Origin: Ornithodoros turicata
Lineage: Eukaryota; Arthropoda; Arachnida; Ixodida; Argasidae
Direction of reading: 5' to 3'
Length of the DNA: 64,000 bases
Assembly (NCBI RefSeq): GCF_037126465.1
Contig: NC_088202.1
Coordinates: 117,752,123-117,816,122 of the forward strand
The translations under genes and the position numbers were made by a program. Positions 1-59,646 of the stretch are shown here, piece after piece (positions within the stretch are counted from its first letter, which is position 1; each line of letters opens with the position of its first letter). Under the pieces are notes generated by a model. That model was not told where the DNA came from and did no database searches. It saw only the letters and a program-made list of their open reading frames with translations.

Positions 1-602
1 AAGTAATCCCCCTCTGGACAGAAAAGCGAAAGGGCTGAAATTGAGGGCAGCTGGCCTTGGAAAGTGGAACGAAGACACCGTGAATAGAGAGGACTGCGTG
101 GGAGCGTCGTCGCTTCTCACGTAGGGAAAAAGGGCCGCATCCTTTAAAAGCGGCGCGTGACCTGGATTAGAGGAGAGCGTCTGGAGGAGTGAAAGTCGAC
201 GGTTCTACGACAGGGGAGACGGACAGCGGTGACCAAGCCTCACCCTGCAGCCCAGCCTCGGAGACCGACCGGCAGCTCCTGCATCCTGAACCTCCCGAGC
301 CCGACCAGACAGTGTACCTGAATCAGCGTACAACCGGCAGCGGACCCACCTCAGTGAAAGCAGCGTGCGGAACGGCCCCGACACAGTTCAAAAACCAGAT
401 CACCATCGTGGGACGTCGCCCGCTGGATGTAAGTCCAAACGCACGCAGTCCCCAACATAAGGTTAGGTAGCACCGTAAGGCTAGGCAGTGTTTGTAAAAA
501 TAAATTGTTGTCAACCCTGTACCTCTCGTCTGGACTCTTCGTCTCACTCAAAAGCGAACCCGATTTTGTGCGACTACTTCTCCGGAGGCCGCGGTCGTCA
601 CA
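1..602 (+). repeat. 5' LTR of Gypsy element 1 (start cut off)
   Basis: Positions 1-602 align with 12779-13389 at high identity; the match ends at GTCGTCACA, just before the primer-binding-like site. From the solo copy the full LTR should be about 655 bp beginning TGAAGG, so about 44 bases lie outside the window. It contains an AATAAA signal at 499-504. A 93-codon open frame without an ATG (189-470) recurs in the solo LTR. Confidence 0.92.
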
Positions 603-622
603 TTGGTGGCAGCGTTGGTATC
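603..622 (+). other. primer-binding-like site, Gypsy element 1
   Basis: TTGGTGGCAGCGTTGG follows the LTR end directly, where Gypsy elements keep the site that pairs with the 3' end of a tRNA primer. Which tRNA is used was not determined. Confidence 0.55.
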
Positions 623-735
623 CTCGCTTTTGAGTAGTGGTAGAGACAACTATTTCCCTCTACTGCGAGAGACGGGAGTAAGGCGTGCGGCCCTCGGTGA
701 CGAGCTTAGCGACTGAGCGAAGCAGTGTACCAGAC

Positions 736-1606
736 ATGGCAGAGTCTAGCGGGCCTCCCCCTCAGGGAGCGAGCCACAGTATTTTGGCACTGAGCAACCT
801 AATCCCGCAGTTCACCGGTGATGGACAGGGTCCTAAGATCGGTGATGTTCTAGAAATGATAGAACAGGTCTCCAAAATGGGGGGTTGGAAAGACACAGAA
901 GTACTGTGCATGACAAAATTTAAAATGGCAGGCGCTGCGCAGGAATTTGTGTGGCATGATGAGACGGCGAAGGCAGCCGACACCTTTGCGAGACTGAAGG
1001 GAATACTTCTGAAGCGGTTTGACGTTGAGCCGTTCAGCTCAAAAATGCAAAAATTCATGAATGCTTGGCAAAACGCTGATGAAGATGTGCGATCAGACGC
1101 AACGAGAGTGCAGATGTTGGCGCACGCAACGCTTAGTGACATTAATGGCGACACGAGTGTAGAAAAACAGGCACAGGCAAAAACAGGCAATGAGGAAAGA
1201 GCTACTGCAGGATCAGATGTGCTCACAATTCATAAATGGTTTGAGAGATCCTGTTCGCAGATTCGTCTTGTCCCGCTGCCATAAAGACTTTGCCGGAGCG
1301 GTTGATGTCGCCGCGCAAGAAGAAGCCAACGAGGCTTTGAGCTCGGCCGTAGCCCGCGTGAGAATCGTTGAGGATCGCAGAGTAAACGAGGTCAATGAAA
1401 TAGAAGGTCTGAAAGCGAGGCTGGTCGAGCTAGAAAGGCTATTGGTAGCGCAAGAGCGACCGACACAGTATTGTCCGCGTAGGTATCGAGAATCATACAG
1501 CCGGAGATGCTTCAGGTGTGGGCGGGTCGGCCATATAGCTCGGAACTGTGTGGTTCGTGAAGAAACCGAGAATACAGGAGGAAACGTGTTTCCAAAAAAC
1601 GCGTAA
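736..1606 (+). pseudogene. gag: gag of Gypsy element 1 (frameshifted)
   Basis: Structural polyprotein of the retrotransposon, which would package element RNA in cytoplasmic particles. The chosen start is the ATG at 736 (MAESSGPPP). The capsid-like part is open to about 1185, where the frame shifts; the new frame continues to 1606 and ends with a CCHC zinc knuckle (CFRCGRVGHIARNC, about 1527-1568) after a coiled-coil-like, Glu/Arg-rich stretch. The knuckle and position after the LTR identify it. The frameshift lies inside the gene body, so it is probably damage rather than programmed recoding. Confidence 0.85.
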
Positions 1607-1623
1607 AGCCCCCCTCGGGCGCT

Positions 1624-4456
1624 TTGCGAGAAGGGGAGGAACAAGCGGGAAGGGAAAAAGGGAAGCATCGAAAGAGACGCCGTAGGCGGAGGACCCAAAA
1701 GGAGGCCATGCCGGGAGACCGTGGTATTGCCATTATCCGTTATTCGACAGAGAGTAGCCCTGTTGTACCTGCAAAAATTGAGGGACACTGCTTTAAATTT
1801 TTAGTGGATACAGGATCTAGAGCGAGTTTGTTGCGAGAAAGTGCACTAGGCCGAATGAAAGATGCTGAGGGCAACGTTACCCTGCAGTCGGGAAAGCCAA
1901 AGTATCACAAATTTGTTGGCGTGACGGGGCATGACATAGATGTAAGAGGGTGTTTTGTGATGACTGTTTCGTTGGGGTCATTTAGATTTCGACACCCTTT
2001 CTACGTCGTTGCGGATAGTCAGTACCTCCCCGTCGGCGGAATTCTGGGTCAGGATATCCTTTCAAGCAAGAATATAGATGTTCTGACGACAAAGGGTATA
2101 CTCAGGGCAGACAATGAGGATATCCCGATCCTAAATTGGAGTAATCGTCAAGTCACGGTGTCGCAAAATGAAGCTGGAGAGGAAACTGTTATCGCGACCG
2201 TGCGGCTGGATGCGATGTGCAAGATTCCGCCCTTGTCACAAGCAGTTTGCTGGGCTAAATTAACAACGCCAGTTAAGGAAGGAGACATGGGTGCAATCGA
2301 AACAGCAAATCTTGGTGTGCACGGCCTCCACGGTGTTGATGTTTTCGTCAGGGTTTCTGCAAATTCCCGTTTGCCCGTCTGCTTTACAAACTTCACGTTA
2401 CAAGAGTTAACGTTACCTCGGAACAAGAACGTGGCCACCTACACGAAGGCGCGAGATGACATAGCTGTGGAGGTCAGGACGGTGGGGGAAAGTCCACCGT
2501 ATATGACAGATGAAATGATAGATTCCTTGTTCTCAATGTCCCACATTTCCGGCCAGGAACTAGTGCGCCTGCGTGAACTGATCCGAAAACATAGCTCGGC
2601 CTTTGCAAAGGACGACCTCGACTTGGGAAAATGCGATACCATCAAGCATAGGATAGATACCAGTAGCGCCTCCCCAATATACCAACGAGCTTATAGAATT
2701 CAATATTCCCAGCGTGGAGAAATGGACAAACAAGTGAACGAGATGTTGAAGAACGGCATCATAGAGAATTCAAAGTCGCCATGGGGAGCGCCTGCTCTTT
2801 TAGTTGAAAAGCCTGACGGATCATTTCGATTTGTTGTTGATTACCGTAAGTTAAACAGCGTGACCAAAATAGATCCCTATCCACTGCCGAATATACAGGA
2901 AACTTTATCGCAGCTCGGAGCAGCTAAGTATTTCTCGGTAGTGGATATGGCATCGGGGTTCTGGCAAATCGAAATGGATCCACGCGATAAAGAAAAGACG
3001 GCGTTCAATACCACGAGTGGACACTATCAATGGACCCGCATGCCTATGGGCCTGGTGAACAGCCCATCCGTATCCGTATGGCAGCGGACAGCCGATGTCG
3101 TATTGGATGGGTTAATTGGCCAACTTTGCCACGTGTACATGGATGAAATTATTATCTACAGTCCTACTTTCGAACAGCACTTAGAAGACGTCGAGCGGGT
3201 ATTGCGCCGGCTATCGGGTGCTGGTCTAAAACTGAAGCCAAAGAAGTGCCAGTTCCTAAAAGCTGAGGTTAAATATCTGGGACACGTCGTTTCCGCCGAC
3301 GGCGTACGCCCAGATCCCGAGAAAGAGAAAGCAGTAAAGGAGTTTCCGGTGCCCCAGAGTATTAGGGAAGTGAGAGAATTTTTGGGCCTGATTGGGTATT
3401 ACCGTAGGCACATTGAAAACTTTGCTAAAATTGCTAAGCCGCTCACTCGGCTTACATCGAAAAACACAAAATTTGAGTGGAGCAAAGAGGCTCAATCTGC
3501 GTTTGAGGATTTAAAGGAACGACTCGTTCTTGCACCATTGCTAAAATATCCAGACTTTACGAAGCCGTTCATTCTTGCAACAGATGCTTCTCAGTATGCG
3601 GTAGGAGCAGTGCTCTCTCAGCGACACGGCAATATGGAACACCCAGTAGCATTCGCGAGTCGCCAGCTAAATAAAGCAGAGCAGAACTACAGCGCCACTG
3701 AAAAAGAGTGTTTGGCTGCGATTTGGGGAGTGAAACATTTCAGGTGTTATCTGTACGGGCGAAAGTTCAAAATAGTTACAGATTGTCGGCCATTGAACTG
3801 GTTAATGAATATTCGTGACCCAAACTCGCGGTTGGCAAGGTGGAATCTACAAATACAGGAGTACGATTTTGAAATAGAACATAAGTCAGGAAAATTGCAC
3901 GGTAACGCTGATGCCCTAGGTCGTGCCCATACGGCTAATGTCAATCTAGTGAACGATTATGTACCCGTGATTGAATCATTTAGGGTCAAGGAGGAGCAAA
4001 GGAAGGATACCAGTCTTAACGACATCATTCGTAAACTTGAGCGCGACCCTTCCCTGACCGAAAATTACTTGATTGATGACAGCGGTTTGCTACATAGAAA
4101 AGGGAGGCAAAACGGGACGTTCTATCGGAAGAAAGATGAATGCCAGATAGTGGTCCCCAGCGCTAGGGTGCCAGACGTACTAAAAGCTTTTCACAGTGCA
4201 CCATATTCAGGACACTTTGGAACAAAGAAAACGCGCCAAAGAATCGAGCGGAGATATTGGTGGGCGGGTATGAGAAAAGACGTTGGAAATTATTGTTCTA
4301 CTTGCCAGGAGTGTCAACTCAGGAAAACACCGAAGAATGGAAAAAAGCTCCCCTTCAGATCTTTGGGGAGGTCAGTAAGCCATTTGAAAGAACAAGAAGT
4401 GGAATGGATATTGTGGGACCACTACCCGTGACCACTGAAGGGAACCGGTACGTTTT
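1624..4456 (+). pseudogene. pol: pol of Gypsy element 1, 5' part (PR-RT-RNase H-IN start)
   Basis: Polyprotein for protease, reverse transcriptase, RNase H and integrase. Protease has DTGS at about 1807-1818. RT blocks include the VVDYRKLN region (about 2830) and the PYPLPNI region. The polymerase centre at 3136-3147 reads YMDE instead of YxDD. RNase H begins near 3580 (ATDAS) and continues with TEKECLA. Integrase starts with an HHCC zinc finger at about 4190-4320. The frame shifts near 4345, and integrase coding stops at 4456 where the LINE is inserted. The listed 5' limit is an open-frame limit; no convincing ATG was chosen. Coding resumes at 7906. Confidence 0.92.
4447..4456 (+). repeat. 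target-site duplication of nested LINE (left copy)
   Basis: GGTACGTTTT at 4447-4456 is repeated at 7906-7915, bracketing the LINE. It lies in the integrase codons of element 1, and the integrase reading continues on the far side, confirming that the LINE inserted into the older Gypsy element. Confidence 0.85.
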
Positions 4457-4543
4457 ACCGGTATTCTCTCTCTGCTCTCTGATTTTCTTTCGTTTTTCAC
4501 TGACCGAAGGCAAGCTCCTCTCCCAAACTACAGGAGAGAACCC

Positions 4544-5941
4544 ATGACAGGAGGCGGACGGGGTCGCAGGACCCCAGGGGTCCGCGACGCCGAGGAAGCA
4601 CCTGACCCTGGGCGATCAGACCAGACTAGCGCTGGCGACAGGAGCCGCTCCCCGGTAGGGAGACGCTCCAATGGGGAACTTACGCCAGCATCAGGGACAT
4701 CACAAACGGAACTCCTGAACGCCTTCGATGATGAGGAGGTGACGCCCCCACTGGCAGACGGAGACGTGCCCACGTCCATGGATGTTCCGCACGACCCTCC
4801 TTCCCCCCCTAGCTCACCATTCCAAATAGTCACATACAAGAAAAGCCGCCCAAGTGGAATCCCAGTTGTCTTCAAATATGTGGGGGAGTTGGATTCTTTC
4901 TGGAATGTCAACCCCAACTCAATAGCCCATGATGTACTCACCACGACGCAAGAGAAGGTTCTCCACCACCGAATCAACAAACATGGCACCCTCATAGTTC
5001 ACGTCTTGTCGGAGCACTCAGCGCAAGGCCTTCTGAGCCTTAGGTCCGTCGCAGGGATCTCAGTCAAAGCCTCTATCCCACAGTCCTACCTGCGCACTAC
5101 CGGAAGAATCACTGGCGTCCCTCGACGTTACAGCGAGGAACAGCTACTCGAATACTTCTGTTCCAGCGGTGTCACTGAGGTAAAACGGGAACTTGCCTAC
5201 TCTCGAGAGAATGACGGGTCCGCACACACCATCGTCAAGAGTAGCGTACTCCTGACCTTCAAACCTGGCCAGGCGCTACCAGCGGAGATTCCCCTCGGCT
5301 TCACGTACTTCCCCGTGTCGGAATACGTAGACCCGCCAACGCAGTGTTTCAACTGCCAGAAGTTTGGCCACTATGCTCGTGACTGCCGCAGCTCGAAAAG
5401 ATGCAAAGTGTGTTCTGGCCCACATGATCATAAGCAATGTACCTCACGATGTGAGCCCACATGCGCAAACTGTGGCGGCCACCACGCTGCAACGTACCGT
5501 GCCTGTACGGTTGCAAGGGCAGCAACAGCTGCACACCGACGGCGCATGCTCAGTGGAAAATCGCATGCCCCTCCACCCCGTCGCTCCACTAATCTCCACA
5601 CTGCTCACTTTCCGCGCCTATCTGGCTGTTCCGCGACACCCGCACACGCTGATCACGGCCCTTCCAAGTCTTTTGCTTCTGCCGTCAAGCAAGTGCCACA
5701 TATCGCGCGCATCGCGGCCCAGGCCAGTGGACAGCGGACACCAGACCCTAAAATTCCGAAGCCCCGTCTGTTGGAGGGACAAAGCAATACATCTCACACT
5801 GTAGTCGCAATGCTCTTCGCCGCCTTAAGCGCCATCGTCCAGCAGCTTCCAACGGCGGCAGACTTACCTGCAGTTCAAGCTATACTTGCACTGGAACCTC
5901 TCCTCCGTACTGGCTCTTTCCTTACGCCCGATAATGAATAA
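4544..5941 (+). CDS. LINE ORF1, gag-like nucleic-acid-binding protein
   Basis: Intact 465-aa ORF starting at ATG 4544, 87 bases inside the LINE. The N-terminal third is Ser/Pro/Asp-rich and probably disordered. The middle (about residues 90-260) resembles the RNA-recognition region of Jockey/I ORF1 proteins. Three Cys/His knuckles lie at about residues 267-320 (CFNCQKFGHYARDC, CKVCSGPHDHKQC, CANCGGHH...C). It would bind LINE RNA in a ribonucleoprotein. The stop overlaps the ORF2 start, as in related LINEs. No disabling change is seen. Confidence 0.85.
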   Translation: MTGGGRGRRTPGVRDAEEAPDPGRSDQTSAGDRSRSPVGRRSNGELTPASGTSQTELLNAFDDEEVTPPLADGDVPTSMDVPHDPPSPPSSPFQIVTYKKSRPSGIPVVFKYVGELDSFWNVNPNSIAHDVLTTTQEKVLHHRINKHGTLIVHVLSEHSAQGLLSLRSVAGISVKASIPQSYLRTTGRITGVPRRYSEEQLLEYFCSSGVTEVKRELAYSRENDGSAHTIVKSSVLLTFKPGQALPAEIPLGFTYFPVSEYVDPPTQCFNCQKFGHYARDCRSSKRCKVCSGPHDHKQCTSRCEPTCANCGGHHAATYRACTVARAATAAHRRRMLSGKSHAPPPRRSTNLHTAHFPRLSGCSATPAHADHGPSKSFASAVKQVPHIARIAAQASGQRTPDPKIPKPRLLEGQSNTSHTVVAMLFAALSAIVQQLPTAADLPAVQAILALEPLLRTGSFLTPDNE

Positions 5942-7685
5942 TGGTCGGCCTCGCGCCTCAATGGTTCATTATCAATCAACCACGATCTTCCAGTGGAATT
6001 CACGCAGCCTGCAATCGAAGTTGTTTGACTTCCGTCAGTTTGTGTGGCGCCACAAATTCCCTGTGTTATGCATCTCAGAAAGCGGCATTAAGGATGACTT
6101 TCGTCTCTCGAATTACGTGACCTTTGTTTCGGAGCCCCGTGGACAGACCAGCCGTGCTGCGCTCTTTGTCCGTGCCGACCTCCCGGCGATCCAGCGCGAC
6201 CTGCGAACAGTTGGGATCGGCGACTACGTCTGCTGCTCTGTTCGTGTGGGCTCACTTGACGTCACTATAGTCTCACTATATATCCCACCATCGGTCAGAT
6301 ACAACGTGGATGAGCTGGGCTCCATTATAGCTGGCCTCCCCTCGCCTTTCGTGCTCTGCGGGGACTTTAATGCCCACAATGAAGTCTGGGGCAGCATGCG
6401 TACTGACACCAGAGGCCAGCAACTAGCAGACCTCTTCGCGGACAAGAATCTCTGCGTTTTAAACGATGGCTCTCCAACTTTCGTCTAGCCGACTTACCGC
6501 TCTTCTTGTCTTGACCTCACCGTCGCGTCAGCGTCCATCGCTCATCGGCTCCTCTGGAGTGTTGATGCGGACACCCTTGGCAGCGACCACCTACCTGTCC
6601 TGGTCGGCATCCCGCATGGCCGCCGATCTTCCAGCTCGCACTCCGTCAAGCGGACCGACTGGCCACGATTTGCGCGAGTGCTCGAATCTTCCCTTGCATA
6701 TGACGGGCTAAGCAATGCGCAAGACTTCTGTCGCGCTGTGGCCACCGCAACCCAGGAAGCAACCACAGTGCACCGCGTCCCGCTTCAGTTTTCCGCTACA
6801 GACGCGGAATACGAGCGGCTCCGTGCACTCCGGCGACGCGCAGAACGGCGAGCACGGCGCACCCTCCTACTCCATGACCGGCAGGCTGCGAGACGGATTC
6901 AGAAGGCTGTTCAGCGACGCCTCCAGAAACTCACACGGGACCGTTGGCGTAACTTTGCATCGTCCCTATCGCCCCGCACACCTCTGTCTCGTATTTGGGG
7001 TGTGCTTAAAGGCCTTTCGACACCTGTAGCGCAACGCCACCCGTTCCGCTCCTTGTCTCTGGCCACATCACGCACCGAAATTGACGTTGCAGAGGACTTT
7101 TGTGCCCGCCTCACCGCCCTGCCTGCTTCAACTCAAACTGCTACTACTCCGATGCCATCTACCAGCAACACAGTCCTGGACTTACCTTTTACACTAGAGG
7201 AGTTAGACTCTGCCCTATGTGCCTCGCCCCAACATACCTCCCCAGGTGCAGACCAGATCTCATACAAGGCGCTCCAGCACCTTCCGCATATGGGGAAGCA
7301 GCACCTCTTACGATTCTTCAATGACAGTTGGCAGCAGGGGCGAATACCCGAGGAATGGAAATTGGCGATGGTTGTCCCCTTGCTCAAACCCGGCCAGTCG
7401 CCCCATCACCTCGACTCCTTCCGCCCGATAGCCCTTACAAGCTGCGTGGGTAAAACTCAGGAACGAATGATTTTCACCCGTCTCATCTGGCACCTTGAGA
7501 GTGCCCGTTTCTTCCCGGAAATAATGTCTTCTGCACTGCCAGCAGCACATCCCGCAACGGCAAGCCCTCCATCGCCGTCTAATACAGCTGGGCTACAACA
7601 CACTGTCCATGGCCACCCTCCTCGGTCCCGTCCCTCGGCCTACTCAGTGGGCCATCACCACAGCCCTGCTCCGCTTCTTAAATGA
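5934..7685 (+). pseudogene. LINE ORF2, endonuclease-RT (stop and internal deletion)
   Basis: Starts at ATG 5934, overlapping the end of ORF1. The apurinic-type endonuclease shows QWNSRSL near the N-terminus, GDFNAHN near 6361 and SDHLPV near 6575. An in-frame TAG at 6486-6488 interrupts this domain. RT finger blocks follow (PGADQISYKAL, PEEWKLAMVVPLLKPG, FRPIALTSC). After about 7530 the frame and homology break. C-terminal LINE sequence in another frame follows, so the RT palm with its catalytic aspartates is deleted. It cannot supply RT activity. Confidence 0.87.
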
Positions 7686-7905: not shown

Positions 7906-8873
7906 GGTACGTTTTGGTCTTCGTTGACCATCTGACGAGGTTCGCAGAGGCTTACCCGATGAGGGACTAGAAGGCACCTACAGTAGCTAGGATATTTGTG
8001 GAGAATATCGTTATGAGGCATGGCACCTCGCGACAGCTTTTGACAGATCAAGGAACCAATTTCACGTCCAAATTGCTCAATGAGGTGTACCGTTTACTTA
8101 AAATTCAGAATCTACAAACAACTGCATACCATCCAGAAACGAACGGTGCTACGAACGAACGGTTGAACGTCTCAATCAAACGATTAAGGGGCTCTTAACT
8201 CAAATGGTGTCGCATGATCAACGTGATTGGGATCGATCATCTATGGCTCCCGTACGCCATTTTTGCGTACAACGCTGCGGTTCACGAAACCACGAACGAG
8301 ACCCCCTTTTTCCTGTTGTATGGCCGAGACCCTGACTTGCCCCACGAATTGTTAGCATCTCCCCCAGTCTCACATTATGGAGTTCTTGATGACTATAGGA
8401 CTGAGCTAGCGCTTCGTATGCAGAAGTCTCATGAGATCGCCAAAGAAGCCCTCGCAAAATCGGCTAAGACACAAAAGGAAACGTTCGACAGAAAGGCTTC
8501 CAGTTGCGCATTCAAAGTAGGAGATCGTGTCTACCTATAGGTAGCAAGTGCGACACCCGGCCTTTCGCGAAAGCTGCAACCTCGTTGGAAGGGATCATAC
8601 CGAGTGGTGGAAGCCTTGTCACCCGTCACCTTCCGAATACGCAAGCTCTGCAACGGTAGCATGCAAGTAGTGCACGCAAACAGGTTAAAAATTGCTCAGC
8701 AGGGAGACCCGTATCCTGTTTGCAGTGGCTCCGACATCCGCAGCCAGAGCAACGTCATGCCAAATCCACCAGTGTCGTTGTTGCGAGTAGTTACTGATTC
8801 TCAGCGGAGAAGTCGATCAGCTTCAGACTTTGTGCGTGGGAGGAGGCTGAGCGCCTTCGATCATGCCACATGA
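7906..8873 (+). pseudogene. pol: pol of Gypsy element 1, 3' part (integrase)
   Basis: Continues the integrase interrupted at 4456: after the repeated GGTACGTTTT the reading gives the core (VFVDHLTRFAEAYP), then LTDQGTNF and HPETNG with a nearby Glu. A TAG falls at about 7969, the frame shifts twice between 8150 and 8240, and another stop is at 8538-8540. The C-terminal module (about 8570-8700; LQPRWKGSYRV, then VVHANRLK) matches the GPY/F-type domain of Gypsy integrases. The second catalytic Asp and the Glu are visible, but the gene is dead. Confidence 0.88.
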
Positions 8874-9466: not shown

Positions 9467-9599
9467 TTGGCGAATGTCATGTGCGTAATGTTCCCCCGTT
9501 AAAATCTATAGCTTTGTGGTTCTGCTTGGCCTTTGTTGGGGCTGTGTGCGTGGCTTTCTGGCGCGGCGATGGCCCGCGGCTACGAAGCAGCAATGAGGC

Positions 9600-9706
9600 T
9601 TGTGCGGTGACGTCATGGAAGGCGAGCCCAGTCACGTGACATTGGAAAACATCGGACGGCCCATCCATTTGCCTTCACGGCTTTGGCTCGGTGTCACTGT
9701 GGAGAG
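9600..9706 (+). promoter_or_regulatory. putative promoter of SWIM-YqaJ gene
   Basis: The 107 bases before the ATG contain a palindromic CRE-like site TGACGTCA at 9608-9615 and an E-box CACGTG at 9633-9638. No TATA box is evident. Motif matches only. Confidence 0.35.
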
Positions 9707-11647
9707 ATGGCTCGTTGTAGCGTCTCTATCGCTATTTTCAGCAAAAGCTTCGCGGATAAATCTTGTTTGATATTTGAAGCAAGTGAATTGAGCGATGTTT
9801 CGAGTGACATAATCAAGAATCACCTTCAAAGGAATGGGTTGAGAGTCACGGGCAACAGAAAGGTTTTGGTTCGACGGTAAGTGCGCAGTTTCAAGTTTTG
9901 CAACTCACTGCGTGTGCGTCTTCACGTGTGCATTTGTTTGTTGGTTTGGTAGGTGTCTCGGGAACCTAAATCGTTCAGGCTGCGAAAATGACGAAAACGA
10001 GAGTAGCAGCAGGAACGCTACCATGAGTGACCTCGGTAGTTGCAGGTTCCACACTATCGTCGCGGTGCCACTTCCTCTAGAAAGCTTTACTATGAGTAAC
10101 GTGATGGACTACTTCATCTTCCGCCAGTTGGAGGCTGGTATAGAAGCAGATTATAAAGGTAACACAATTTTTGCAACTTCGTCGTATCGCTTCGCTATAG
10201 CAACAACCTGCTTTGTGTCCAGTGCCAGACGCAGTGCTAAAAGTGTGTCACTTTCCTGTCGCAAACTGTTTTTCAGGCATTAGTGAAAAGTCTGTTCAGT
10301 TGTTTAAAGCAGGACACGTTGCTGACATACAGCATGCTGAACAAGATGATGAGGTGTATGTACGCGCCCAGTGTAAAGCAGAAATGAGAAAAAATGTGGT
10401 GTACAAGTTGTTGCTGTGCTGTGACAAGCGTGGAAAAATCTGTTTTGGCGAATGTAGCTGCAAGGCTGGTGCAAGGCCAGCATCTTGTAAGCACCTAGGT
10501 GCCCTGTGTTATATGCTTGAAGACTATTACAGGTAAATTAAAATGATGTGAGGAGGACACATCACTGTGCATATTTTCTTCTATGAAACAAAAATGCTGG
10601 CATATCCATTGTGACATGTTTTTATGATGCAGGCAGGGACTCCAGATTGCACCTACAGATGTTCTACAGAAATGGCATCAACCTTCTGTCATCAAGATTG
10701 GACCAACGCGTCTGAAGGACATCATGGTTTCGGAAACCGTCAAATATAGGGAATGTGATGTCAGTGTTCCTCGTGTTACAGACAGCGAGTTGCAACAGTT
10801 TGTCCAAGGGATGGGATCCGACACAATGTATGCAAGAAGCTTGTTTGTGCAACACGCTTACTTGGAGCCACCACCAGACAACCTCCCAATGTCAACTGTT
10901 CTACCAGATATTGCTTATCATCCCCAAGAATGTACAACTCAGATCCTCCTGTATTATGCTGAGCATGTTCGGCTTGACCTACAAGAGTGTCAGAGACTTC
11001 AGGAACGTACAAGAGCTCAGTTTTTGTGTCATTTATGGCATGATGAAAGAAAGCTCCGCCTCACAGCATCCAATTTTGGGAGGGTAATTTCTAGGAGAGA
11101 CGATTTCAAGAAACTTGCAGTTGATCTAACTAGTAAAAAAAATATCAGCCACGTTCCAGCTGTACGTCATGGCATTCAGTCTGAGAAAGTGGCAAAACAG
11201 AGACTTTTGGAATATACTAACTCAACAATAATATACGACTGTGGGTTGGTAGTAAATCCAAAGTTTCCTTATCTGGCATGCTCCCCTGATGGTCTTTTGT
11301 ACATTGATGGTGAACCAGCTCTCATTGAATGCAAAGCATTGTATAATGCTAAGGGAAAATCTGTGTCTGAAGCATTGAATGACAGAATGTACCCTTATCT
11401 TGTGAGTAATGGCTCATCACTATCCTTGAAACAGGATCATATGTATTTTTATCAGGTCCAGGGCCAAATGGCTATCACTGGTGTACACCATTGCTTCTTT
11501 GTAGTTATTGCTGACCTCACAAAGGAACCCTTCGTACAAAAAATCAGTTTTGAACCTGATGTGTGGAAGGACATGGTACCCAAGCTGCGGGACTTCTATT
11601 TTATGCACTTCCTTCCACAGGCACTGAGCAGAGGTACCACACAGTAA
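9707..11647 (+). CDS. SWIM zinc finger / YqaJ-type nuclease, 4 exons
   Basis: Exons at 9707-9876, 9953-10158, 10277-10532 and 10633-11647 join in phase across GT-AG introns into 548 aa with no stop. Residues about 30-56 resemble a SAP DNA-binding motif. A SWIM zinc finger, C-x-C-x8-C-x-H, is at 185-198. The C-terminal half is a YqaJ (lambda-exonuclease-like) domain: LRLTASNFG, HG..SE, LACSPDGL with D430, IECKAL with E443 and K445, and QVQGQM at 485-490. D, E-x-K and the Gln motif are the expected catalytic set, so the nuclease looks active. The first ATG fitting the exon is 9707. It probably acts in the nucleus on transposon DNA ends. Introns are 76, 118 and 100 bp. Confidence 0.88.
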
Positions 11648-12013
11648 TGAGTGTGTATTAGCTTCCACCCATGACTCTTCACGTAATGAACAGAAGTGTA
11701 TGTGATATAACATGTAGCCATCTTTTCATAACATGTGTATTCATAACTGACCTGTACATATCATTGAGAAATAAAACAATTCATCTTTGCCATTGTTCAG
11801 GGTACATGAAACCACGTACATAGTAGAATATTATGTAATCGGTTGAGATGTACACATAAGCAGGACACTAAACTCTACTTTCTTTGTGTATCTCTCCTTA
11901 CATTTTTTTTTCTTTTACTGTGGGAACCACACTAGTACAGCATAGAAATAGACTGATGTACCTTTTTGATGCAAAACAATGTAGTTTCAAAGACTGGACA
12001 TAGCGTTTAATAT
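11648..12013. other. 3' UTR zone between convergent genes
   Basis: AT-rich, no ORF. AATAAA at 11770-11775 suits the SWIM-YqaJ transcript, 123 bases after its stop. No clear signal was seen for the opposing transposase transcript. Confidence 0.55.
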
Positions 12014-13421
12014 TCAGCTCACAAGGGGTGCACCAGCATTACATAAAAAAGCACAGATGTAGAACACTTCTTCCGCTTCGTATAGCAGCTTGATGTCAAT
12101 AGGTTTTGCAAAATACTTGAATGTCTTTATGCGACCTATTGCCCTCTCAACATGGATTCTATTGTGTGCGACATTTCGTGTTTGTAGCACCTCCCTATGT
12201 GTCAGCTGAGGACGACCGTCCATAAATGGAGGGGTCACCACAGTTATCGTTTTTCCATTAACTGTAAAGGATCCCGAGAACCCACGATCAGCAAGGACAA
12301 GGTCGTTTTCTTCTAGCTGCTGCAGCACTCCACAATTCTGAAGGAGGTATTTGTCAGATGTACTACCTCCATATAGGTCTGACACAAAAGAGATTGCTCC
12401 ATTTGGTGTTATTCCAACTAAAGCTTTCAACGTATTACTGTTCTTGTAGTGAGACCACGTCTGTTGTTGTGCAGTAGGATTTGATGGCTGTTGGATCTCG
12501 ATTTCTGTGCAGTCTATGATCACTCTACACTGTGGGAAGCTTCGAATAAATGAAATGGGCATTGTCTTATCAACCACACTTCTCTCAGGCCATAAGTTAA
12601 TTGTTTTTAACCTCTTGTACACTCGGGTTATCCAGTATGCAAGAATCCTAGATATAGTTGACCTGTCTACCAGGAAACGTTGTGAGAGATCATAATGTGT
12701 GCACCCAGTTCTGAGCCTGCAGAAAGAGGCACGTTGAAGGTCGCCACCGGATTTCGTCCAGTTGGGAAACAAAGCCCAAAGTAATCCCCCTCTGGACAGA
12801 AAAGCGAAAGGGCTGAAATCGAGGGCAACTGGCCTTGGAAAGTGGAACGGAGACATCGTGAACAGAGAGGACTGCGTGGGAGCGTCGTCGCTTCTCACGT
12901 AGGGAAAAAGGGACGCATCCTTTAAAAGCGGCGCGTGACCTGGATTAGGGGAGAGCGTCTGGAGGAGTGAAAGTCGACGGTTCTACGACAGGGGAGACGG
13001 ACAGCGGTGACCAAGCCTCACCCTGCAGCCCAGCCTCGGAGACCGACCGGCAGCTCCCGCATCCTGAACCTCCCGAGCCCGACCAGACAGTGTACCTGAA
13101 TCAGCGTACAACCGGCAGCGGACCCACCTCAGCAGTGAAAGCAGCGTGCGGAACGGCCCCGACACAGTTCAAGAGCCACTCTACGATCACCATCGTGGGA
13201 CGTCGCCCGCTGGATGTAAGTCCAAACGCACGCAGTCCCCAACATAAGGTTAGGTAGTACCGTAAGGCTAGACAGTGTTTGTAGAAATAAATTGTTGTCA
13301 ACCCTGTACCTCTCGTCTGGACTCTTCGTCTCACTCAAAAGCGAACCCGATTTTGTGCGACTACCTCTCCGGAGGCCGCGGTCGTCACAACGTAGAAGGA
13401 ACCCTTCTTCGCCAGTGTTCA
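12014..13421 (-). pseudogene. DDE transposase (ISL2EU type), split by a solo LTR
   Basis: The - strand frame from 12734 to 12014 encodes about 240 aa: a helix-turn-helix-like segment (DLSQRFLVDRSTISRI) and a DDE core with Asp at 12512-12514 (IIDCTE), Asp at 12287-12289 (LADRGF) and Glu at 12146-12148 (HVERAIGRIK). The frame also runs open into the LTR, but those residues are not native. Beyond the LTR, 13421-13394 continues the family pattern in the same frame, next to a possible splice acceptor (GTGCAG) at 13422-13427. Upstream exons, possibly including a THAP domain, were not found. The core triad is intact; the insertion is the only lesion seen. Confidence 0.85.
12735..13389 (+). repeat. 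solo LTR of Gypsy element 1 family
   Basis: 655-bp LTR starting TGAAGG and ending TCACA, matching 1-602. It is flanked by ACGT at 12731-12734 and 13390-13393, a 4-bp target duplication normal for Gypsy. AATAAA is at 13286-13291. No internal region remains, so the element was lost by LTR-LTR recombination. It lies in the coding region of the DDE transposase. Confidence 0.92.
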
Positions 13422-13509
13422 CTGCACAGACGTCTCATAAGGGTACCAATTGCTTGCTTCGCGTCCGCTTGGGTGCGACCAGCTCTACATATCGCATACT
13501 ACGCGACTG

Positions 13510-14017
13510 TTTTAAAGGAGCATGGGAGTGACATTTAACTTGACTCGAAACCCTGCTTCATCTGTGAAGCTGTCCACAAGGTCTGTGAAGCTGGCTTCAT
13601 CTGTGAAGCTGTCCACCCACCATGCAAAATACTTTCGATCTGCGGCGTAATGTCACTGCGCAATACACTTAACAAAAGACGGCAGTCGCGGCGCGTGACG
13701 TAGAAGCTGCTCGGTGCCTTTTTTCTTTGTTTTTTCATCTCGGCTCGCGCGCCGCTTATACATGTTTCAGCTGTGCCCTTGGACGTCACTGGTCACGTGC
13801 CGTAGCCCGTGATACGTCACGCCATCTCCGGCTTCGCTTCGGCGCTCTTCGGATGTGGAGAGCACTCTTGGAGAGTTGTGCGGAACAGAGCCTTGCGCGT
13901 GCTCTCTGGGTTGCCTGCGCTCATCGTTCTTTCGCAGCAGCTTATTTTATTTGTTGTAGAAGACGTTGCAGCGAAAAACTAAAAATATTTTTGGGGTCAC
14001 TTCCATGTTCCTTTAAG
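13510..14017. mobile_element. possible small TIR element
   Basis: The ends at 13510-13531 and 13996-14017 are inverted repeats of about 22 bases with three mismatches (core AAAGGA-CATGG-AGTGAC). No transposase and no clear target duplication. The interior has CRE-like sites (GACGTCAC at 13782) and a short direct repeat at 13553-13611. Confidence 0.45.
13553..13611. repeat. short direct repeat with palindromic core
   Basis: GCTTCATCTGTGAAGCTGTC occurs twice (from 13553 and from 13588). Each unit contains the palindromic core GCTTCATCTGTGAAGC. Confidence 0.6.
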
Positions 14018-18059: not shown

Positions 18060-19440
18060 ATATATATATATATATATACTCATTGAACGATGCGACAGCA
18101 CCAGAGGACACGTGTTTCGCCGTGTTTGCGGCTCGTCGGCCCTGGGTAGCTGCGCATCGTTCGGGATTGGCAAACCAGGGGTCACTCAGCGAGCGATATA
18201 CACCTGGGAGGGTGACTGAGCACTCCTCAATGCCACAGTGCAAGCCAGTGAATTATAAAGAGGGGGGAAAAACCATTAAAAAAATAAGTAAATGATGCTA
18301 GACGTGTTTGAAATTCAAACTTACAGATTAAAATGGCTTCTATGGCAGCACGTAGAAAAACAGATACTCATTGAACGATGCGACAGCACCAGAGGACACG
18401 TGTTTCGCCGTGTTTGCGGCTCGTCGGCCCTGGGTAGCTGCGCATAGTTCGGGATTGGCAAACCAGGGGTCACTCAGCGAGCGATATACACCTGGGAGGG
18501 TGACTGAGCACTCCTCAATGCCACAGTGCAAGCCAGTGAATTATAAAGAGGGGGGAAAGCCATTAAAAAAATAAGTAAATGATGCTAGACGTGTTTGAAA
18601 TTCAAACTTACAGATTAAAATGGCTTCTATGGCAGCACGTAGAGAAACAGATACTCATTGAACGATGCGACAGCACCAGAGGACACGTGTTGCTTTCCCC
18701 CCACGGCTTTCCACACGGCTTTCCCCCCTCTTTATAATTCACTGGCTTGCACTGTGACATTGAGGAGTGCTCAGTCACCCTCCCAGGTGTATATCGCTCG
18801 CTGAGTGACCCCTGGTTTGCCAATCCCGAACGATGCGCAGCTACCCAGGACCGACGAGCCGCAAACACGGCGAAACACGTGTCCTCTGGTGCTGTCGCAT
18901 CGTTCAATGAGTATCTGTTTCTCTACGTGCTGCCATAGAAGCCATTTTAATCTGTAAGTTTGAATTTGAAACACGTCTAGCATCATTTACTTATTTTTTT
19001 AATGGCTTTCCCCCCTCTTTATAATTCACGGGCTTGCACTGTGGCATTGAGGAGTGCTCAGTCACCCTCCCAGGTGTATATCGCTCGCTGAGTGACCCCT
19101 GGTTTGCCAATCCCGAACGATGCGCAGCTACCCAGGGCCGACGAGCCGCAAACACGGCGAAACACGTGTCCTCTGGTGCTGTCGCATCGTTCAATGAGTA
19201 TCTGTTTCTCTACGTGCTGCCATAGAAGCCATATTAATCTGTAAGTTTGAATTTCAAACACGTCTAGCATCATTTACTTATTTTTTAATGGCTTTTCCCC
19301 CCTCTTTATATATGTATATATATATATAACGATGCGCAGCTACCCAGGGCCGACGAGCCGCAAACACGGCGAAACACGTGTCCTCTGGTGATGTCGCATC
19401 GTTCAATGAGTATATATATATATATATATATATATTCATC
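18060..19440. repeat. 288-bp repeat family, direct and inverted copies
   Basis: Units starting ACTCATTGAACGATGCG occur at 18078, 18366 and 18653 (spacing 288 and 287, third truncated). Inverted units end CAATGAGTAT near 18914, 19201 and 19411. The cluster is a large inverted repeat centred near 18700. Further partial units lie at 19322-19410 and 19541-19617. Each unit carries GAACGATGCG and, about 80 bases later, its complement CGCATCGTTC. Flanks are (TA)n. No coding potential; the repeated open frames merely reflect repetition. Confidence 0.88.
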
Positions 19441-19645
19441 GATTTTTAAGTTTTAATAAACCCTTTTTTTGTTACTTCCCCTACTTTCGTCTTCTGTCTC
19501 CCATTTATTTCAACTATATATATATATATATATAGATACTCATTGAACGATGCGACAGCACCAGAGGACACGTGTTTCGCCGTGTTTGCGGCTCGTCGGC
19601 CCTGGGTAGCTGCGCCATATATACTTTTTTTCGAACATATTTTTT

Positions 19646-22976: not shown

Positions 22977-23021
<45 letters not shown>

Positions 23022-23439
23022 TCATTGAACGATGCGACAGCACCAGAGGACACGTGTTTCGCCGTGTTTGCGGCTCGTCGGCCCTGGGTAGCTGCGCATC
23101 GTTCGGGATTGGCAAACCAGGGGTCACTCAGCGAGCGATATACACCTGGGAGGGTGACTGAGCACTCCTCAATGCCACAGTGTGAGGAGTGCTCAGTCAC
23201 CCTCCGAGGTGTATATCGCTCGCTGAGTGACCCCTGGTTTGCCAATCCCGAACGATGCGCAGCTACCCAGGGCCGACGAGCCGCAAACACGGCGAAACAC
23301 GTGTCCTCTGGTGCTGTCGCATCGTTCAATGAGTATCTGTTTCTCTACGTGCAGCCATAGAAGCCATTTTAATCTGTAAGTTTGAAATTCAAACACGTCT
23401 AGCATCATTTACTTATTTTTTAATGGCTTTTCCCCCTCT

Positions 23440-23463
<24 letters not shown>
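22977..23463. repeat. (TA)n and inverted 288-bp-family copies
   Basis: (TA)n at 22977-23020, a direct partial unit to about 23180, an inverted unit to about 23440, and (TA)n again at 23442-23463. The junction near 23181 (CCACAGTGTGAGGAGTG) marks the inversion centre. Same family and flanks as 18060-19440. Confidence 0.85.
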
Positions 23464-25919: not shown

Positions 25920-28893
25920 TAACCGTCCCTCCGCGGACGGTACGGGATGACGTTTCCAATGGTCGCCATTTCATCGGTCCCTCGTGGTCCTTTATAGCCC
26001 ACGGCTTTTAGGATGCCTTCCTGGTGCATCGTTTTCCACACTTTGTATGGACCCTCGAAGCTTGCTTGGGTTTCCTTGGTCCCTCGTCTTACAAGGACCT
26101 CGTCACCAACTTGGATTGAGGGTATCTTAGTATTCCTGTGTTTGTCGAAGTTTTCTTTCATCTTCTTGCGATACTTGTCAATAGCTTCTGGGGATCGGCG
26201 CCGCACTTCTAGGTGGACATGATCGGTTATGCGGAGTCGTTCATCCGCAGGGAACAACGCGGGAGTGTTGAATACCGCAAAATGGGGGCTACATCCCAGC
26301 GCTGTGGTGTGAGACCTATTGTGATGCCTGACTGCCGCTTCTAGAGCACATTTCCACCCTCCCTGGAACCGGGGATACATTGCGATGTATAGCTTTAAGT
26401 CCATGGTGGTCCTCTCCGCGAGACCGTTGGCCGCTGAGTGGTACGGTGTTGTTGTGCGTAACTGTACCCCTCGTTGCTGAGCCCAGGCTCGCAGCCGGTG
26501 ACTCCTGAACGCTGGTCCATTGTCCGAGATTATGATCTTCGTGTCCCGAAACATGTCGCGTTCCAGCAGCTTGATTACACATTCGGCGTTTTCTCTCCCT
26601 GCGCGCGCGGCCGCCATTCGCGTGCACTGATCGACCGCTACGAGAAACGCTTGCGTTCGAGCAACTCCTTCCCCTTTCTTCCTTAACTCTGCGAAATCCA
26701 GGTGGAAGGTCTCAAACGGTACCAGAGAATGATGAGGCAAAATCATGCTGTCGCTGGTTGGACGATATTTTGCCTTATGTAGCTGGCAAACGGGACAAGA
26801 TGCTACGTATTTGCTTATATCTAACTTCATATTGGCCCACGTGAATCTTTTGGAAATCTTGTTATATGTTCGCCAAAAGCCATCGTGGCCGCCGGAATCC
26901 GGGCTGTCGTGGTACATTTCTAACACAGTGCGTATCCGTGTGTCAGGCACGTGCAACCTTCCGTTTTGGGGTTGGAAATCCTCTGATCCTTCCCACAATT
27001 TGGTGTGGTTTATGGGCTCCGCAGAATTGTCCAGAGGCATGCTCAAACGCGAGATGGCGTCGGCGTCCGTTAAGTACGAGGCGTTCCGATGGACGGCTTT
27101 GAAATCGAGCTCCTGTAGTTCACAAATCCATCGTGCGATCCTGCCTTTTGGTTCGGACGAAGTCAGCAAGTATGACAGAGCTTGATTGTCAGTGAAGAGA
27201 GTGAATCGCCTCCCCTCGATATATGGGCGGAAATACCTCGCTGCAAGGAGTACTGCGAGTGCTTCCTTCTCTGTTGTGGTGTAATTTAGTTCACAGTCGG
27301 AAAAGATGTGTGAATGGTACCCGATGACGCTTAACTGCTGTCCCATGGGATTTTCCTTTCGTCGTTGGTACAATATGGCCCATGTGGCGTAGTGCGACGC
27401 GTCCGTCTTGAGTTCGAAATGTAATGAGAAGTCAGGTAACGACAAGACAGGGTCTGATGAGATCCGTCGTACCAGTTCTCTGTAAGCCCGCTCGCATTCC
27501 TCTCCCCAGACGAACGGTACGTCTTTGCGTGTCAGCAGCGTGAGGCACCTTGTTAGACCGGCGTATCCCGGGATGAACGCCCTGAAACGTCCGGCCAGCC
27601 CCAAGAATACCCGCAAAGAGTGTATGTCCTGCGGCTTTTGGAGGCAAGCGATGCGGTCAACTGATTCTTGTTTGGTAGTCTTGGTGTTGCCGTCTAACAC
27701 TCGTCCCAGGAAGACAACCTTCTCTTTGAAAAACACACTCTTTTTGAAATTGATCTTCATATTCGTTTTGGATAGGGCTTCTAGGACATTGGTGAGGTGC
27801 ACCTGGTGGTCAGCTTCCGACCTGGAGTAGATGATGACGTCGTCTATATATACAGCGCAAAAGGCACGCAGTGGCCGAAGCACATCATCCATTATTTTCT
27901 GGAACCAGGCCCCTGAGTTTTTCTAGCCGAAGGGCAACCGGTTGTATTCGGAAAGGTCGAAGGGTGTGATAAAGGCTGTGTACATCTTGTATTCCTCTTG
28001 TAGCGGTATTTGCCAGTAACCTTTCTGTAGGTCGATACAGGAGAATACGTTGCAGCCGCCGGTGCTGTCTATAATCTCGTCAATGTTCGGCATAGGATAT
28101 GGGAACAAGTCTGTCTGCTGGTTAATGAGTCTGAAGTCGGTGCACAGCCTGTAGGTACCGTTTGCCTTCGGCGCTATGGTTATGGGCGACGCGAAGGGTG
28201 ACGTAGATGGTCTTATAATATTTGCATCCAGCATGGACTGTAATTCTGTTCGCAGCCATTCCTTTCTTTCTCTCGAAAGAGGATATGGCTTTCGTCGGAT
28301 GACAGTGGTGTCCCGCAACTTGAATGGAATCGCAAATCCGGAGATGGGTGGGGGGCAGCTGCGTAGGCACCTCAATTCCGTATACATGGTTACGACATCC
28401 TGCGCACACTTCGGCAGCCTCTGAGCACGGGTGTGTGTCAGTTCTGCGTGCCTCAGCTCCTCCGATACGGCAACGTGGTCGTCCCAGTACAGATTGAGGT
28501 GCATCGCCTTCATATGGGGCCGAGAGAGAAGGAAGTCGTACTCTGCCCCGTCCACCACAAGTGCTTCTGGCTCTATCGCGTGTCCTTTGTATTCAACCTT
28601 CACCTTTGTCCATTCGTTTATTGTCCTTTTGGACCCGTCGTAGGCTTGCACTTGTACCGGCCGCCCAGCTGAAATTTCATCGGTATTTGTCACTCTTCTG
28701 TTGATAATGCTGATGCTCGCACCAGTGTCCACCAGTGCATCAACTGGTTTTCCATTGAGCAGCACGGGGATGAACAGTAAGGTTTGGTTGAGTAAAAACA
28801 CAGTCTCCTTTTCTGCTTCCGGGCGAGACTGCCAACCCGCGTTTATTCGTGTTTTGAGTCCGCCGCTGTTGTATGCTGAGACCAATCCCGATT
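25919..28893 (-). pseudogene. pol: pol of Gypsy element 2 (one in-frame TAG)
   Basis: Retroelement polyprotein of about 990 codons. Protease has DTGA near 28718-28729. RT includes YRLCTDFRLIN, the PYPMPNID block and an intact YIDD centre near 27840-27852. A TAG at 27923-27925 replaces the residue after LPFG, normally Leu or Met in the family. RNase H follows (TDASHYA, TTTEKEA, FTDNQAL), then integrase with an HHCC finger (HDSPDSGGHDG ... CPVCQLH), Asp in LDFAEL, Asp in SDNGPAF and Glu in LAERT. The frame is otherwise open to TAA at 25919. It overlaps the end of gag in the -1 frame, suggesting recoding, but no standard slippery heptamer was found. Confidence 0.93.
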
Positions 28894-29886
28894 AGCGTCG
28901 TAGGCCTCGGGTGATTTCTCACCCACGAAGTTGGTGGCTGCTGCCGGGTGTCGCGATGTCCACGGGTTACGTGGATTCGGTGGTCGAGGATCAGGTGGAG
29001 TCCGGTTGCAGGTGTGATCATCGTTATTGCTGGGCCGGTCCACGGTTAGGTCTTTGAAGCATGACAAAAGCTCCAGCACGGTCTTTGGCCCCCGACCCTG
29101 GACTTGCTTCTGCAGGTCACGGCTTAATCCATGTATTATTAACGGAACCACGGACGTTTCTGGCAGGTTGCTATCGGCCGTCTGTAGGAGTCTGTGTTTT
29201 TCATAAAAGTACTGCAGAGCGCTCCCCGAACGGTACTTGTAGAAAATCGCCCGGTCCCACCGTTCGACCGCATTTTCCTGGAAGGCGCCCAGGAAGCTCA
29301 GCTTACATTGGTCCCATGTTTCCTTGACGTTCGCAGTGACTCTCAGGTCAAACCAGCTTTTGGCCATCTTGCTTAGGTAGGAACGAAGGTTCGTTATCTT
29401 TTCGTCGTCGGTGGTCCAGCCATTCTTCCCACAGGCGTACTCGTACAAGTCCACCGAGGCCTGCGGACTCGTGGAACACCCGTCAAATACCTCTGGATCC
29501 ACCAGCTCACCGCGGGGCTTAGAGCTTGCAATCGCGGCGGCCATTCCTCGTAATAGCTCGAGTTGCTGCGCGGACTGTTGCTGTTGTAAGGAGATCATCC
29601 TTAATAGAAGCTCTTGTGTGCCATCGTGCGACGACGGACTCGCGACTGGGCCGCGCGAAGTGGCGTCCCCAATCCAGGCCTGGAAATCATTTAATTTCAT
29701 ATTCACCTTGACGCTACCTTTAAGTAATATCTCGTCGACACTCCTCCTACTTCTTGTGATAACATACTGTGCCAGCTCTGGTGTGCTGATGGCTTCTGGC
29801 AGCAGTATAGGGTCCTCACCGTCTATCTGGTACCGATCGACGAGTAGACTATCCCCCGAAGGCTTCACATAAAACTCAATCCACAT
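28843..29886 (-). CDS. gag: gag of Gypsy element 2
   Basis: Capsid precursor of 347 aa from the ATG at 29886, 29 bp after the LTR; an open frame extends upstream into the LTR only with a GTG start. The central and C-terminal parts carry a retrotransposon gag pattern (SWFDLRV, WDQCKLSFLGAFQ, IHGLSRDLQKQV). There is no CCHC zinc knuckle, unlike element 1. It ends at TAA within the pol overlap. It appears intact. Confidence 0.85.
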   Translation of the reverse strand: MWIEFYVKPSGDSLLVDRYQIDGEDPILLPEAISTPELAQYVITRSRRSVDEILLKGSVKVNMKLNDFQAWIGDATSRGPVASPSSHDGTQELLLRMISLQQQQSAQQLELLRGMAAAIASSKPRGELVDPEVFDGCSTSPQASVDLYEYACGKNGWTTDDEKITNLRSYLSKMAKSWFDLRVTANVKETWDQCKLSFLGAFQENAVERWDRAIFYKYRSGSALQYFYEKHRLLQTADSNLPETSVVPLIIHGLSRDLQKQVQGRGPKTVLELLSCFKDLTVDRPSNNDDHTCNRTPPDPRPPNPRNPWTSRHPAAATNFVGEKSPEAYDANRDWSQHTTAADSKHE

Positions 29887-29895
29887 CTCCTTCGT

Positions 29896-29915
29896 ATCCT
29901 GTCGACCGCGCCAAA
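29896..29915 (-). other. primer-binding-like site, Gypsy element 2
   Basis: The - strand sequence directly after the 5' LTR reads TTTGGCGCGGTCGACAGG. Its place suits the tRNA primer site; the tRNA was not identified. Confidence 0.5.
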
Positions 29916-30020
29916 TGTAATGTTCCACACGGGAGACACCTTGCCTCCAGCCTCGAACACGGGAAAGTTAACTTTATTGTTTTCCTCGCAACCTCTCCTC
30001 TTCGTCTTCTGCCCACTACA
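29916..30020 (-). repeat. 5' LTR of Gypsy element 2
   Basis: 105-bp LTR matching 25799-25903 with one difference, so the insertion is recent. The promoter and poly(A) functions must fit in this short sequence. Confidence 0.93.
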
Positions 30021-42719: not shown

Positions 42720-42721
42720 TA

Positions 42722-43365
42722 GGTACACATGGAACGATGCGGCAGCACCAGAGGACACGTGTTTCGCCGTGTTTGCGGCTCGTCAGCCCTGGGTAGTTGC
42801 GCATCGTTCCGAATTGGCAAACCAGGGGTCACTCAGGGGCAAACCAGGGGGGTGAGTCACCCCTGGTTTGCAAATTCGGAACGATGCGCAGCTACCCAGG
42901 GCTGACGAGCCGCAAACACGGCGAAACACGTGTCCTCTGGTGTTGCCGCATCGTTCCATGTGTATCTGTTTCTCTGCGTGCAGCCATAGAAGCCATGTTA
43001 ATCTGTAAGTTTGAATTTCAAACACGTCTAGTATCATTTATTTGTTTCTTTAATGGCTTTTTTTTCCTGCATTGTAATTCACTGGCTTGCACTGTAGCAT
43101 TGAGGAGTGCTCAGTCACCCTCCCAGATGTATATCGCTCGCGGAGTGACCCCTGGTTTGCCAATTCGGAACGATGCGCAGCTACCCAGGGCTGACGAGCC
43201 GCAAACACGGCGAAACACGTGTCCTCTGGTGCTGCCGCATCGTTCCATGTGTATCTGTTTCTCTGCGTGCAGCCATAGAAGCCATATTAATCTGTAAGTT
43301 TGAATTTCAAACACGTCTAGTATCATTTATTTGTTTCTTTAATTGCTTTTTTCCTGCATTATGAG
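42722..43365. repeat. 288-bp-family copies, diverged subtype
   Basis: One short direct unit (from about 42731), an inversion at about 42835-42855, then two inverted units ending about 42965 and 43253. Sequence differs from the 18-kb cluster at fixed positions (ATGGAACGATGCGGCAGC for TTGAACGATGCGACAGC). It abuts the right end of foldback B. Confidence 0.82.
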
Positions 43366-43792
43366 CATATATATATATACATCATCACACCAAACAAGAA
43401 ATTCGCTCTATAGCTTTTGCAAACACCCATGTGAACATTAACTTGTGCATTACATTTTCTTTCTTTTTTTTTGTGATTACTTGCGTCAAAGTTCCGAAAA
43501 TAAATACCTAACTTCTGGAGAAACTACACTCTAAAGGAGCCTTTGTTCCCTTGCAACACTCACATGTAAATACTACGGGACAATCGGAGGAGCAACCCAA
43601 AAATAGCATTGCTTGCAGATAACTAGTCCACAGTACATAACATATGCTATGTACAAGGATAGAATGACTAAAATGCAAGCGAGCTGGCGATTAAACAGCT
43701 CTGTTTGAGACTTTGTCCGTGTGTGTCTATTTCGTACATCTCTTGTCTCGGGGTGTTTAACAATATGAGACATGCTATGTGACCCTTCATTA
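43366..43792. other. non-coding, no recognised feature
   Basis: AT-rich; nothing supported. Confidence 0.4.
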
Positions 43793-59642: not shown

Positions 59643-59646
59643 TATA

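Follow-up and report, generated by a model that had tools for sequence, protein, structure and literature searches.

A right-truncated ISL2EU transposon with an open YqaJ nuclease frame, nested in a retrotransposon long terminal repeat of Ornithodoros turicata

Does an undamaged nuclease gene in a transposon mean that the gene is in use, or only that the copy is young? The question is raised by a stretch of 64,000 nt from Ornithodoros turicata (NC_088202.1, positions 117,752,123-117,816,122, forward strand), here called the window, on which all positions are based. An earlier note on this stretch described an intact two-gene transposon of the ISL2EU type at 9467-13421, with a spliced SWIM-YqaJ nuclease gene tail to tail with a DDE transposase gene. 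We find a right-truncated ISL2EU copy nested in the 3' long terminal repeat (LTR) of a Ty3-type retrotransposon, and give this anatomy and history a probability of roughly 0.9. ISL2EU occupies 9595-12721 only, and the flanks of the interval first proposed are two pieces of the 3' LTR. The copy is not intact, as both its right terminal inverted repeat (TIR) and the N-terminal half of its transposase are absent. The locus is made up of the following parts, where C97 denotes the contig carrying a full-length sister copy.

1-602, + strand: remainder of the 5' LTR of the Ty3-type retrotransposon; the initial ~190 bases of this LTR precede the window and are in L017
9480-9594, + strand: left part of the interrupted 3' LTR; from 9478, 116 of 117 bases equal the element's own 5' LTR
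9593-9594, + strand: left AT copy of the target-site duplication (TSD) in A|AT|T; the right TSD copy is missing
9595-12721, + strand (nuclease direction): ISL2EU copy lacking its right part, with 3127 bp left of about 4.33 kb, delimited by the C97 alignment and the unoccupied LTR site
9595-9651, + strand: left TIR, ~57 bp, starting GAGGCTTGTG; inverse match to the right TIR of C97, 81% over 58 columns
12014-12721, - strand: 3' part of the DDE transposase gene (Pfam), the last 235 of the 463 residues of the C97 protein
12720-12722, no strand: deletion junction of ISL2EU and LTR at a shared CA, placed by comparison with C97 and the LTR
12722-13389, + strand: right piece of the 3' LTR, with the terminus TCACA; 644 of 670 columns equal the element's own 5' LTR

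The host retrotransposon was recognised by self-comparison, in which window positions 1-602 recur at 12779-13389 with 96% identity. A frame at 1561-4428 encodes aspartyl protease, reverse transcriptase (RT), RNase H and integrase zinc-binding domains, and the integrase C-terminal domain is found at 8541-8873. Most LTR copies match from 9480, which sets the start of the 3' LTR at about this position. Over 778 compared bases the two LTRs have 18 substitutions between them, or ~1.2% per copy.

The uninterrupted 5' LTR reads GCAGC-AATT-CCAGG where the window reads GCAGC-AAT-GAGGCTTGTG. The site is unoccupied in 13 of 13 other LTR places, the 5' LTR included (AATT in 10, GATT in 1 and AGTT in 2). 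These empty sites are clear evidence of ISL2EU integration into AATT; it follows that the copy begins at 9595, that its target was A|AT|T, and that it is younger than the retrotransposon, so that the LTR divergence is an upper limit for the age of the insertion. The window copy corresponds to bases 1-3136 of the C97 copy (4327 bp), to which it is 98.5% identical, and, measured by C97, 1191 bp of ISL2EU, one AT and 18 bp of LTR were lost at the deletion junction. Looking for terminal repeats and a target duplication, as the earlier note had advised, we recovered the left TIR and the left AT but neither of their right counterparts: there is no right TIR near 13421-13509, and the right end of C97 matches the window at the left TIR only.

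The reverse nesting, in which a solo LTR would have entered the transposase gene and duplicated ACGT, had been suggested by an in-frame continuation past 13389, which is due to chance. It was ruled out because the 5' LTR puts the LTR start at ~9480, and hence ISL2EU lies inside the LTR and not the LTR inside ISL2EU.

The Ty3-type retrotransposon inserted first. ISL2EU then entered by cut-and-paste at AATT in the 3' LTR, duplicating AT, and later a deletion of ~1.2 kb with 2-bp microhomology would have taken the right TIR and the 5' half of the transposase gene. The right part was thus probably lost in one deletion after the insertion. With one end and half of the transposase gene gone, the window copy should no longer be mobile.

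What the element looked like when complete can be judged from the sister copy. It is flanked by GTTAAT and ATTCAC and has both TIRs, of 57 bp, which are identical at 47 of 62 columns. Its conceptual transposase of 463 aa (other acceptor choices give other lengths) matches THAP (E 1e-17), HTH_Tnp_4 (E 4.2e-13) and DDE_Tnp_4 (E 4.7e-45) in Pfam. In its full-length form the family is this 4327-bp element with 57-bp TIRs, whose two genes, for a THAP-HTH-DDE transposase and for a spliced YqaJ nuclease bearing a SWIM-like finger, lie tail to tail. C97 and the loci L013 and L014 have both ends, AAT-GAGG...CCTC-ATT; the TIR identity is weaker in the latter two (34 and 39 of 62 columns, respectively).

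Linkage of the two genes was examined at ten loci (C97, L008, L011, L013, L014, L015, L016, L033, L034 and L035), which are mostly best matches and not a random sample. The YqaJ gene lies tail to tail with a DDE_Tnp_4-type transposase at 7 of the 10. L008 shows no transposase, but at 3.7 kb its sequence is too short to tell, L033 (C2:12245253) is a 304-bp left-end match only, and L034 belongs to a different kind of element. An apparent second end of L015 at 7849 was dropped as a chance match (18 of 60 columns).

As described in PMC4482050, ISL2EU elements have the target A|AT|T, TIRs of 6-259 bp usually starting with GG, and a THAP-HTH-DDE transposase paired with a YqaJ protein. The TIRs of C97 fall within this range; the window retains the left one only. 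Because of the A|AT|T target, the TIRs and THAP-HTH-DDE transposase of C97, and the tail-to-tail pairing of YqaJ and DDE_Tnp_4-type genes, the window element is by its sequence features an ISL2EU transposon, a member of a known group, as first proposed. With the ISL2EU branch of PHIS (PIF/Harbinger-ISL2EU-Spy) as presented in PMC4482050 it shares the AT duplication, the THAP, HTH and DDE domains, the YqaJ second gene and a similar length (4.3 kb, the average there being ~4840 bp); it differs in that its TIRs start with GAGG and not GG, and in the truncation of the window copy. Teleost ISL2EU elements in the account of PMC9179366 likewise have two open reading frames (ORFs), a DDE transposase that carries HTH or THAP, and an alkaline exonuclease domain of the YqaJ type, but reside in other hosts. 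The terms SWIM and SAP do not occur in the main text of PMC4482050, nor does a SWIM or SAP domain in that of PMC9179366, whereas the window nuclease has a SWIM-like finger and a SAP-like stretch. PIF/Harbinger, following PMC4482050, has a related DDE transposase and the same two-gene layout, but its second gene is of the Myb/SANT type and its TSD is TWA, against YqaJ and AT here.

The transposase remnant lies in a 322-aa ORF composed of 87 residues from antisense LTR and 235 transposase residues, residues 1-228 of the C97 protein being absent. It keeps most of HTH_Tnp_4 (from profile position 13) and all of DDE_Tnp_4 (E 6.6e-46 in Pfam), while its start, THAP and first part are gone. The triad is D157, D232 and E279. 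Hence the triad and the tail-to-tail position were correctly described, but the N-terminus of the ORF is not transposase.

For the nuclease gene a splice search gave four predicted exons.

9707-9876, + strand: exon 1, with a weak SAP-like stretch at residues 37-57
9953-10158, + strand: exon 2; a GT donor follows the matching residues in L014 and L016
10277-10532, + strand: exon 3, with C-x-C-x8-C-x-H from residue 185 (SWIM-like)
10633-11647, + strand: exon 4, encoding the nuclease domain and running through the stop codon

All introns are GT-AG, and the exons join in phase into 548 aa, in agreement with the earlier note. Within the ranges tried, four splice combinations leave an open frame (559, 550, 548 and 539 aa). 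The 548-aa form is preferred because of its TTTTTCAG acceptor; the 559-aa form is possible. The splice sites are also present in the C97 copy, and donor or acceptor sites stand at matching places in some, but not all, of the introns inspected in L013, L014 and L016. The YqaJ domain (PF09588) is matched with E 1.9e-12, and the catalytic set that had been named is borne out by D430, E443, K445 and Q485, which stand in columns invariant across 15 aligned sequences.

The protein has the lambda-exonuclease fold with the conserved D...E-x-K. Its identity to lambda exonuclease and LHK-Exo is 18% and 24% in the two alignments, and it differs from them by an added N-terminal part with the finger motif and by being encoded by a eukaryotic transposon. 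The finger itself is present as a motif, but there is no Pfam SWIM (PF04434) match at E<=1. SWIM scores in the relatives L035 (0.009) and P0013 (0.0036) are both below the Pfam cut-off, and P0002, P0005 and P0010 carry the motif and give no Pfam SWIM match. For SAP (PF02037) the window nuclease (E 0.029) and its relative P0010 (E 0.0067) are below the cut-off as well, and the remaining relatives scanned with Pfam gave no SAP match.

As to what such a nuclease does, PMC4482050 calls the function of the second ISL2EU ORF unknown, in line with the earlier statement that its role is poorly understood, and the authors of PMC9179366 (2022) write that they know of no proof of ISL2EU activity. In the model that we favour the transposase would bind the TIRs through THAP and HTH, and cut and join them. 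The nuclease, tethered to DNA or to the transposase through its N-terminal modules, would act as a lambda-type 5'-3' exonuclease resecting the donor break, and repair would then recopy the element from the sister or homologue. That the YqaJ protein is a 5'-3' exonuclease at the donor break, favouring this copying-back, may be true, at slightly less than even odds.

YqaJ genes are numerous in this genome. The copy count gave at least 120 matches, with 119 of 1627 candidates scored. A 640-residue stop-free frame is present in 46 of the at least 120 matches listed, and a 490-residue one in 6 of them. Two loci with the longer frame, L034 (C1:67413001-67420000) and L036 (C2:628001-634600), are 99.6% identical over 5727 columns and have different left flanks; the left end of this pair is seen, and the right side runs beyond the compared sequence. 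Such near-identity suggests recent activity of the element. The 640-residue frame of L034 contains YqaJ joined to the second half of a domain of Mutator-like transposases (PF20700), with the first half of that domain in the preceding frame; when the two frames were spliced, only two joins, both with weak sites, gave an open frame. The 490-aa pair, L035 and L037, is 99.5% identical and matches to both ends of the compared sequence, and L035 has a DDE_Tnp_4 gene tail to tail with YqaJ. Among 39 protein homologues the SWIM-type finger motif occurs in 14 and PF20700 in 10, with an overlap of 0, as if the two were alternative tethers of nuclease to transposase.

The joining of YqaJ to a Mutator-like domain hints that the nuclease serves transposition directly. 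We tentatively propose, with more doubt than conviction, that YqaJ nucleases work directly in the cut-and-paste transposition of eukaryotes and that transposases unrelated to each other acquired them: in ISL2EU the nuclease would be a separate partner bearing SWIM, and in the Mutator-like elements a C-terminal domain fused to the transposase, both within this genome. A full-length sister copy and near-identical Mutator-YqaJ elements in one genome make the role of YqaJ in transposition testable. Among the papers listed on these subjects, none appeared, judged by title and the opening of the abstract, to deal with a SWIM-YqaJ or YqaJ-Mutator-like protein in a eukaryotic transposon. A scan of IMG/VR for relatives of exon 4 gave 6 stretches that fit the pattern, 0 of them confirmed, and a plasmid scan with the 490-aa relative gave two weak bacterial matches only, which is uninformative.

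A role in targeting or nuclear import has been proposed for the Harbinger Myb-like protein, and in the chief rival to our model the YqaJ protein would similarly be mainly a DNA-binding helper whose nuclease activity is dispensable. The weak SAP-like score and the SWIM-like motif in its N-terminal part would fit such a helper. We regard it as rather unlikely, since the four catalytic residues are invariant in the 15 aligned sequences, since the transposase already carries THAP and HTH, and since L034 of the same genome joins YqaJ to a Mutator-like domain with no Pfam SWIM match at E<=1.

We return to the open frame. Window and C97 differ at 14 of 773 noncoding, 15 of 1647 nuclease and 8 of 707 transposase sites, and all 13 of 13 gap columns are noncoding. 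The dN/dS comparison advised in the earlier note gave, for the nuclease, dS 0.026, dN 0.0046 and a ratio of 0.18, with 9 silent and 6 replacement changes, including the C97 stop (one-sided binomial P 0.0012). By this codon comparison there was purifying selection on the nuclease between the two copies, which we infer to have acted while the lineages were still mobile. The copies have since decayed reciprocally: in the window the nuclease is open and the transposase cut, and in C97 the transposase is open and the nuclease has one stop. The C3 copy is full of lesions.

When the nuclease frame was simulated without selection at a divergence of 0.3%-1.16%, it stayed open in 12-82% of cases (12-57% with indels, 47-82% without). 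Youth alone can therefore explain the open frame, which is no evidence of use, although with indels, at the oldest age, its survival would have taken some luck. We infer that the youth of the copy, and not use of the gene, accounts for the open frame. Of the two meanings offered earlier, recent activity or retained function, the first survives as a fairly recent insertion, later than a retrotransposon whose LTRs differ at 18 of 778 bases, and the second is not needed. The window copy itself is ordinary, a young and broken member of a known group.

Had the window nuclease been selected for a use by the host or in trans, e.g. the supply of nuclease to broken copies such as that of C97, this would also have kept its frame open where C97 has a stop, and would suit both the reciprocal decay and the ratio of 0.18. 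We consider such selection improbable: frames stay open as often as the simulations indicate, the ratio spans a time when both lineages were probably mobile, and the element, with one end missing, sits inside an interrupted retrotransposon.

That 9467-13421 holds a two-gene ISL2EU in complete or nearly complete form, for which the presence of both nuclease and transposase domains, the intact triad and the tail-to-tail order might be cited, is next to impossible, being already refuted, unless the assembly is wrong there, by flanks that are two pieces of one LTR and by the loss, relative to C97, of the right TIR, THAP and 228 transposase residues.

Several points weigh against the truncated, nested ISL2EU copy and the model built on it. 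Only one full-length member of the family shared by C97 and the window was found, and the C97 nuclease has a stop at codon 65, so none of the copies seen has an open frame in both genes. The TIRs start with GAGG, where the source gives GG with the word 'usually', hence not as a strict rule. In the retained transposase part, 4 silent and 4 replacement changes separate the window copy from C97 (P 0.09), too few for a statement on selection. Resection at the donor site is derived from the fold alone, and a selected host use of the window nuclease keeps its small probability. Finally, the retrotransposon shows no clear target duplication of 4-6 bp, with ACACA before the 5' LTR and ACGTA after the 3' LTR (13390-13400); one flank may be rearranged.

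The retrotransposon is interrupted a second time. The stretch 4439-7682 is another nested insertion, splitting the Ty3-type pol (4428 / 8541-8873), and probably a non-LTR element; it has a frame with a CCHC zinc knuckle at 4439-5938 and an endonuclease-RT-type match below the cut-off at 6489-7682. Just right of the retrotransposon, 13512-14016 is a separate element of ~505 bp resembling a miniature inverted-repeat transposable element, with inverted ends of 21 bp (TTAAAGGAGCATGGGAGTGAC). Further along, a dispersed repeat occurs in direct and inverted orders at 18060-19615, 22996-23463 and 42720-43382, with a 287-bp tandem unit at 18717-19310. On the - strand, 25922-29967 belongs to another retrotransposon, in which three frames give matches of the gag, protease, RT and integrase types, and 58782-59678, also on the - strand, holds a mariner-type (Transposase_1) remnant.

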